Origin: Thiomicrospira sp.
GTDB lineage: Bacteria > Pseudomonadota > Gammaproteobacteria > Thiomicrospirales > Thiomicrospiraceae
Direction: 5' to 3'
Assembly: GCF_014859555.1 (NCBI RefSeq)
Contig: NZ_JACUTY010000001.1
Span: 19,621-83,620 of the forward strand
Length of the DNA stretch: 64,000 bases
A program made the translations under genes and the position numbers. Shown here piece by piece: positions 32,206-64,000 of this stretch; the first letter of the stretch is position 1, and each line of letters begins with the position of its first letter. Below the pieces are notes generated by a model, which was not told the origin of the DNA, searched no databases, and worked only from the letters and a program-made list of their open reading frames with translations.

Positions 32206-32224
32206 CGGGTTAATCGAGGTGCCC
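32206..32224. repeat. solo terminal-repeat remnant of the MITE-like element
   Basis: CGGGTTAATCGAGGTGCCC matches the element end. Confidence 0.5.
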
Positions 32225-50601: not shown

Positions 50602-51298
50602 TTTTTTGAAGTTAATCTCGCATTTTGGTCCTGTTTTGACCGTATTTTTGGCCTTTTAATTGGTTTTTGTTGGTGTTTTCCAGTTTTTGGGCACACCAAC
50701 CATCCGATGCGGTTTTAACATTGTAAGAGGCATCGACGTCTTGGGTGTTTTCGCCCTTGGCATTTTTATGGGGTCGGTTGTTTTTGGCTTGAATAACGGT
50801 GGCATCAATAATACTGGCTTGACCATTTTTAATAATGACGCCTTGGCTATTGAGTTGATGATTGATGTTATCGAGCAGCGTTTGTAACAGACCGCTTTTG
50901 TTGAGATTGTTTCTAAAGCGCCATATAGTGGAATGATCGGGCACGGGGTCTGTAAGGCTTAGGTTTATAAAGCGTTTAAAAAGTAGGTCACGAGCCAGTT
51001 GTTTTTCACAGGCGGGGTCGCTTAGATTGTAAAAGCTTTGCAGTAATAGGATTTTGAACATCATCAAAGGTGGCCAGGCTCTTTCGCCAGTAGGGCTGTT
51101 GTTTAACGTGATCATTTGCAATTCAATGGACTTCCAATCAATGAGTTGATTGAGTTCGTCTAACTCACTAATGGCTTCGTGCTGATGAATGAAGGCATCG
51201 GCAAGTGAGGTTTGAGTTAGGTTTTTCCAAGCCATTTTAGTGCTCCATTGAATTGTTTTAATGGGGTGTATTTTAAACTTAACCGTTAGAGATTGCAT
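50602..51298 (-). mobile_element. IS5-family transposase, N-terminal part only (truncated)
   Basis: MAWKNLTQTSLADAFIHQHEAISELDELNQLIDW...GERAWPPLMMFKILLLQSFYNLSDPACEKQLARDLLFKRFINLSLTDPVPDHSTIWRFRN...IIDATVIQAKNNRP; C-terminal catalytic part absent. Confidence 0.88.
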
Positions 51299-62659: not shown

Positions 62660-62792
62660 GGGCATCTCGAATACCCCCTAGTTGATTCTGGCCACGCCAA
62701 GTTTTTCAGATCAAGGCGTGAACCTGCCGGAATGTCTAGACATCGCAAAGGTTCACAACGCAGAATTCAAGCTGGGGTTAATCGAGGTATCC
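62660..62792. repeat. MITE-like repeat with terminal inverted repeats
   Basis: Left GGGCATCTCGAATACCCCC, right GGGGTTAATCGAGGTATCC; internal palindrome ATGTCTAGACAT 62732-62743; second copy at 63948-64000. Confidence 0.7.
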
Positions 62793-63272: not shown

Positions 63273-63953
63273 TCAGTTAATCTCCAGCACACCATCAATT
63301 GTCACACTTAGGGTTTGTGAGCCCATTTCAATGCTCGGAGCATTCGTGTCGCTGGCCGTTAGGCTGCGTGCTTGAAGCGGCAAGGCATAGTTTGGTTGCA
63401 AACGTGTTTCAGCCAAACGATAGTGTTTTTCGTTAAAGGCTTGGGCTATAAACTTCGCCTGTTGTTGATACTTTTGAATCGCTTTGCTCAGCAAGGCTTG
63501 TTCAACTTGCTGACGTTTGTTTGGGCTAATATCGGCTCGGACTGATTGATAAATTAAATGACGCTGTAGGCTACTTAATACACCGGTAATGTCGGCATTA
63601 TCTTTGGGAAGATTAAGCCTAAGGTCTTGCTGACCAGACCATTCGCTAATCCGGCCGTCTCGCTGAAAATGGGGGCGAACATGGTAATTGCCGGTTTGAG
63701 CATATTGGCGATGATCGGTCGAAAGTTCATTCAGAGCCGCTTGCATAATTTGATTGACGCGCTGGCTAACTTGATCCGCGGTGCTGGCTCGGTATTGGGC
63801 TGCAAATACAACATGTAGACGATCATTTTCGACGGTTTGTTGTTCGGTCACGCTAAAGCTAATACGGTGCGGGTCAGCGAGCACCAGGCCTGGTGCTAAA
63901 AGCAAACAAGCCGATAATACGAGGAATTGAACCGTTTTATATGGATTGGGCAT
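63273..63953 (-). CDS. SIMPL (DUF541)-like secreted protein (start MPNPYK)
   Basis: Signal peptide; VENDRLHVVFAAQYRASTADQVSQRVNQIMQAAL...YRLAETRLQPNY. Confidence 0.7.
   Translation of the reverse strand: MPNPYKTVQFLVLSACLLLAPGLVLADPHRISFSVTEQQTVENDRLHVVFAAQYRASTADQVSQRVNQIMQAALNELSTDHRQYAQTGNYHVRPHFQRDGRISEWSGQQDLRLNLPKDNADITGVLSSLQRHLIYQSVRADISPNKRQQVEQALLSKAIQKYQQQAKFIAQAFNEKHYRLAETRLQPNYALPLQARSLTASDTNAPSIEMGSQTLSVTIDGVLEIN
63880..63897. repeat. 18-bp palindrome AGCACCAGGCCTGGTGCT (signal peptide of SIMPL-like protein)
   Basis: perfect palindrome. Confidence 0.95.
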
Positions 63954-64000
63954 CTCGATTAACCCCTGATTCATTCTGGCAACGCCAAGTTTTTCAGATC
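63948..64000. repeat. second copy of the MITE-like repeat (truncated by window end)
   Basis: About 47/53 identity to 62660-62712 by eye. Confidence 0.75.

Follow-up and report, generated by a model that had tools for sequence, protein, structure and literature searches.

A family of small folded elements, most probably IS5-derived MITEs, in Thiomicrospira and related genera

The element at the locus and its second copy

The window is a 64,000-nucleotide stretch of a Thiomicrospira genome (positions 19621-83620 of contig C132, assembly G000; hereafter the host genome). Between a putative uvrA-like gene, assigned by sequence, and an ORF of 100 residues lies a 133-bp element, the features of which are collected in Table 1. 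Its terminal inverted repeats (TIRs) are approximate, with 14 of 19 positions matching by direct count, and its interior contains the palindrome ATGTCTAGACAT at positions 62732-62743, between GTGAACC and GGTTCAC. Both features had been noticed in an earlier sequence-only reading of this DNA, as had the lack of any ORF inside, and no ORF of at least 60 aa overlaps the element. Alignment with the full-length copy L002 reports a single gap of ~130 bp at ACGC(A/C)GA...ACGCAGA, and the copy is the product of an internal deletion, from 263 to 133 bp, between short direct repeats. Because its fold is weak (z -2.5) and its exact target-site duplication (TSD) is lost, none being found at its borders, it is considered an old, degenerate member of its family. 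The element is absent from the genome G001, though uvrA and the gene that follows keep their synteny there; the corresponding site, with ~110 bp of other sequence in it, therefore cannot count as a clean empty site. Close to the gene orthologous to the window's 100-aa ORF, the genome G003 carries another palindromic element, AGGAGCCTGTCGGATTAAACC...TTTAGTCCGACAGGCTCCTAG (L237, ~75-140 bp upstream of position 1501), which possibly belongs to a different MITE family.

Table 1. Features of the two copies of the element in the window
Feature	Position	Strand	Basis or remark
MITE copy, 133 bp; internally deleted derivative of the ~263-bp element	62660..62792	+	Paired TIRs; alignment to the full-length copy L002
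Left terminal inverted repeat, GGGCATCTCGAATACCCCC, diverged	62660..62678	+	Family consensus GGGCACCTCGATTAACCCC
Leftover upper part of hairpin A, GTGAACC...ATGTCTAGACAT...GGTTCAC	62718..62756	+	Conserved helix in alignment A1
Deletion junction, ACGCAGA; 3' half of hairpin A and whole of hairpin B gone	62758..62764	+	Alignment to L002 and L003
Right terminal inverted repeat, GGATACCTCGATTAACCCC on the minus strand	62774..62792	-	
Current ORF of the gene interrupted by the second copy	63273..63953	-	Joined flanks compared with the G001 orthologue
TSD of the second copy, GATT	63944..63947	.	Partner GATT at C74:56-59
Left part of the second copy, probably full-length; continues past the contig end	63948..64000	+	

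The stretch 62660-62712 had been matched by eye with 63948-64000 at about 47 of 53 positions, and the latter was taken for a second copy at the window edge. The repeat finder reports 89% identity over these 53 nt, and the second copy is indeed present, but it runs off the contig: C132 ends inside it, and its matching right end lies at the start of contig C74, with GATT common to both flanks. When the flanks are joined minus one GATT, a frame is restored (MKSLNALNPYKTVQF..., beginning MKSLNALNPYKTVQFLVLSACLLLAPGLVLA) that resembles the uninterrupted G001 orthologue (MKSLNASNPSFTVHS..., beginning MKSLNASNPSFTVHSFMLWACLTLIPGLVLA). The second copy therefore disrupts, 8 codons into the frame, a gene that bears a signal peptide. 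The terminal GAGATGCCC of this copy supplies an in-frame ATG (M-P-NPYKTVQF), preceded nine nucleotides upstream by AGGGG, a possible ribosome-binding site, and we infer that the current ORF starts at this MITE-derived ATG. Here a MITE end would have taken the place of a gene's start.

Copies, ends and insertion sites

The BLASTN comparison that the sequence-only reading had proposed returns 46 matches to a 173-bp query in the 2.1-Mb host genome (146 contigs), and the core is present in 13 genomes of the same family, covering four genera, among the 57 relatives searched. The end sequence GGGCATCTCGATTAACCCC, with up to three mismatches allowed, is found at 92 sites of the host genome, compared with 0 for its reversed control. 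In this genome, 30 of the TIR sites listed are no more than 60 bp away from a contig end, for example at the end of C132 and at both ends of C74 and C111, and the family accounts for many of its assembly breaks. A solitary match to the MITE end, GGGCACCTCGATTAACCCG, lies on the minus strand of the window at 32206-32224, with no partner end detected.

Defined from multiple copies, as had also been proposed, the ends are paired inverted repeats of ~19 bp with the majority sequence GGGCACCTCGATTAACCCC. Complete copies with such paired ends span 27 to ~317 bp, the commonest full form being 262-264 bp. The ~263-bp form is ancestral, and the earlier description of a MITE-like element of ~133 bp is thus kept as to its nature, borne out by TIRs, TSDs and empty sites, but not as to the family size. 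A 160-bp form is devoid of hairpin B, lost between TAAGCCCC and TAAGTCCC repeats, while 27-bp forms, which carry the other end type described below, look upon sequence inspection like deletions between CTGATTSAATCAG repeats near both ends. Slippage across the hairpins would be a natural source of such shorter forms.

An exact 4-bp direct repeat borders 36 of the 79 complete elements against 3.6 expected, with a maximum of 10 by chance in 2000 flank swaps, and 5-bp border repeats are absent among these 79. The flanks of host-genome copies were joined and sought across the genus, which returned single-copy uninterrupted target sites in the sister genomes G001 or G004 for L007 (TAAT), L003 (ATAA), and L011 (ATTC); the borders of the element are therefore fixed, and insertion is demonstrated. 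Insertions of the family avoid genes and are mostly intergenic, 15 of 72 being inside open frames of at least 100 codons compared with 87% of the control positions in the flanks. Many GGAACC-ended copies have the duplication TTAA, CTAA, or TTAG, and the GGGCACC copies have TAAT, AGAT, ATTC, and others. A subgroup of IS5 elements generates target duplications of 4 bp, YTAR. One insertion at an identical site is shared by L119 (Thiomicrorhabdus cannonii) and L180 (a Thiotrichales MAG), and this orthologous copy may be useful for dating.

A palindromic, intergenic, multicopy family that folds strongly also evokes REP/REPIN-type elements, for which the mobilising enzyme would be a REP-associated tyrosine (Y1, HUH) transposase acting via single-stranded DNA. 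However, the family has 19-bp TIRs next to a 4-bp duplication as well as precise empty sites, and the same ends occur on an IS5-family insertion sequence (IS); these features point to DDE transposition and make a REP/REPIN origin very improbable. The earlier designation as non-autonomous or REP-like therefore survives in its first half, given the multiple copies, the lack of an ORF and the related IS ends, while the second is not supported, REPs being short single palindromes that lack a TSD and go with a RAYT gene, in contrast to the long TIRs and the TSD seen here.

A candidate autonomous partner

An IS with the same ends, which the sequence-only reading had suggested looking for, was identified in the sister species G006 as an intact 1259-bp IS5-family element with ends GGGAACCTCGAATAACCC, matching the MITE end at 17 of 18 bases. 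While the ends are alike, this IS carries a transposase gene and its interior is dissimilar to the MITE core. The transposase (350 aa) is assigned to NF033581 with 271 bits (cut-off 140), and also to PF05598/PF01609. Degenerate relatives of the IS are located elsewhere in G006, which holds as well a MITE copy ending GGGCACCTCGAATAACCC; no clean 4-bp TSD was found at the IS copies of this genome. G015 contains a 470-bp IS5 remnant, the ends of which, GGGCACCTCTAATTACCC / GGGCACCTCTAAAAACC, are variants of the MITE end. Judging from these ends, an IS5-family IS likely mobilises the MITE family in trans.

For the IS5_4 transposase, the host genome and the further MITE-rich genomes covered by the search returned fragments or nothing, and in no case an intact copy. 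The only IS5-family transposase trace found in the host genome is a fragment in the window (50726-51163, minus strand; C132:70346-70783), with 117 bits against NF033581, below the cut-off, and no matching ends were found around it. As just transposase fragments were found in these genomes, any current mobility there would be hypothetical. The MITE populations of genomes without an intact IS may be relicts, or the IS may be absent from the draft assemblies.

Genes for IS4-family (DUF4372-type) transposases are located at L090 1-1057 (C78) and L089 1150-2292 (C5). In the C78 copy, the gene is cut short by a 301-bp MITE, the end of which is read through as GTSINPE, and the other MITE flank is unlike the intact IS4-family copy, leaving no clean empty site. 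This transposase was rejected as the autonomous partner, being merely a target truncated by the MITE.

Distribution and two end types

The named records with the core belong to Thiomicrospira, Thiomicrorhabdus, and Hydrogenovibrio, together with two contigs of the Methyloprofundus MAG Kmv24 (copies at L176 4036-4299, L194 229-388 and L194 1285-1440). One protein of these two contigs has no close relative in the Thiomicrospira group, and the copies are due to horizontal transfer or else to contigs that were binned wrongly. One reading frame in L194 runs across the MITE and is fused with a response-regulator gene. The viral contigs searched for the core returned no match. A second end type, GGAACCTCTGATTGAATC, similar to the first but distinct from it, delimits the same core in some genomes of Thiomicrorhabdus and Hydrogenovibrio, with up to 25+25 sites in one genome, and both end types co-occur in G023, G027, and G034.

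A fold kept by compensatory changes

Nearly the whole of the full-length element (~263 bp) can pair with itself, as a closing stem of ~30 bp, of which the TIRs are part, and two large imperfect hairpins, A and B; for one copy, folding yields z values of -11.6 as DNA and -14.0 as RNA. The consensus fold on an alignment of 27 full-length copies (A1) contains 91 pairs, 50 of which exhibit at least one two-sided compensated change, and 95% of its cells are paired compared with 30-46% after sliding the partners by 1-3 columns. The terminal stem was left out of a separate interior test because a shared transposase already forces symmetry there; in the interior, 28 of 61 pairs display two-sided changes, amounting to 127 two-sided cells versus 34.5 in shuffles, a control that ignores relatedness. 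In Thiomicrospira, Thiomicrorhabdus, and Hydrogenovibrio alike, compensatory changes preserve the fold, interior included, and the spread of the two-sided changes over genera and end types argues, at the level of sequence comparison, against a single event. Two other interpretations of the hairpins were rejected: that B is an inverted duplicate of A, the alignment scores falling inside shuffled controls, and an attC/integron reading prompted by the imperfect hairpins, since by eye there are no R-box consensus ends, and TIRs with a TSD were found.

The interior could be a host-useful structured RNA, involved in mRNA processing or stability, that gained mobile ends and whose fold is kept by selection on the transcript. 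This would agree with two-sided changes in helices of the interior, which are independent of the TIRs, with one core borne by two different TIR types, and with an excess of G-T over A-C in hairpin A (53 to 10), expected if the plus-strand transcript matters and a hint of RNA-level selection. Hairpin B, however, is devoid of this excess (29 to 33), Rfam 15 returns no hit at the gathering score in 8 loci, a scan of the elements reports no terminator-like site, copies adjoin unrelated genes on either strand, and many lack one or both hairpins, so that we consider a host RNA of this kind rather unlikely. It is possible, if doubtful, that the two-hairpin core is an independently selected module of RNA or single-stranded DNA, carried between genera by the ends GGGCACCTCGAATAACCC and GGAACCTCTGATTGAATC; if so, the core would be a mobile structured module and not inert MITE filler.

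Conserved pairing could also stem in part from palindrome correction instead of selection. Near-perfect palindromes are known substrates for template-switch correction, and template-switching during replication, by correcting one arm to the other, would produce covariation without selection, consistent with the mostly Watson-Crick pairing changes in A1. Yet the internal-loop mismatches, which such correction should erase, stay conserved in almost every one of the 27 copies despite variation in the stems, and neutral maintenance is accordingly given a low probability.

Proposed mode of propagation

We regard it as highly probable that the family consists of non-autonomous IS5-type MITEs, moved in trans by an IS5-family transposase, with a folded form that is probably functional. 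The transposase, putatively assigned to the IS5 family, would recognise the ~19-bp ends in trans, excise or copy the MITE, and insert it, mainly into intergenic DNA, with duplication of 4 bp of the target. Replication slippage between the short direct repeats bounding the hairpins probably gave rise to the 160, 133, 48-52, and 27-bp forms. Because its paired arms are kept by compensatory changes across three genera, the folded form, whether single-stranded DNA, a cruciform or a transcript, probably has a role, and would probably aid propagation or host tolerance.

Comparison with known elements

By its tested features, the family is a MITE: short, multicopy and gene-less, with TIRs, a TSD and an IS with nearly the same ends; it is most probably derived from IS5. 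No report of MITEs in sulphur-oxidising bacteria of the Thiomicrospira group was found in the literature searched, to which a well-delimited family is added here; the family is new, while the kind of element is already known. The dozens of diverged, compensated copies make testable the long-standing question of whether the hairpins of bacterial MITEs are under selection, as RNA or as DNA.

ISAba12 is a member of the IS5 family. In Acinetobacter, the corresponding MITEAba12 is likewise non-autonomous, has TIRs matching a known IS, is widely spread in one family and has a comparable mode of spread (PMC6382973). It is 113 bp long, near-constant in length and weakly folded, with a 9-bp TSD present in 40% of the copies (PMC6382973), in contrast with the 27-317 bp, the very strong conserved fold and the 4-bp TSD of the Thiomicrospira family. 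ERIC/IRU, Correia/NEMIS, and RUP are small mobile intergenic repeats with TIRs, TSDs, size variants, and stable stem-loop transcripts (PMC2229807). The Thiomicrospira MITE resembles ERIC and NEMIS in being small and structured, with TIRs and a TSD, but the descriptions of the three groups, with TA-type termini and other sequences (PMC2229807), set them apart from its pair of hairpins enclosed by a long TIR stem and from its IS5-type end. QMITE2 of Coxiella burnetii, with TIRs of 23-29 bp, a very stable predicted fold and direct repeats of 7-9 bp (PMC10969869), is alike in its TIRs and stable fold and differs in direct-repeat length and core size. Among MITEs, the Thiomicrospira family is unusual mainly for an elaborate fold that is retained despite sequence change.
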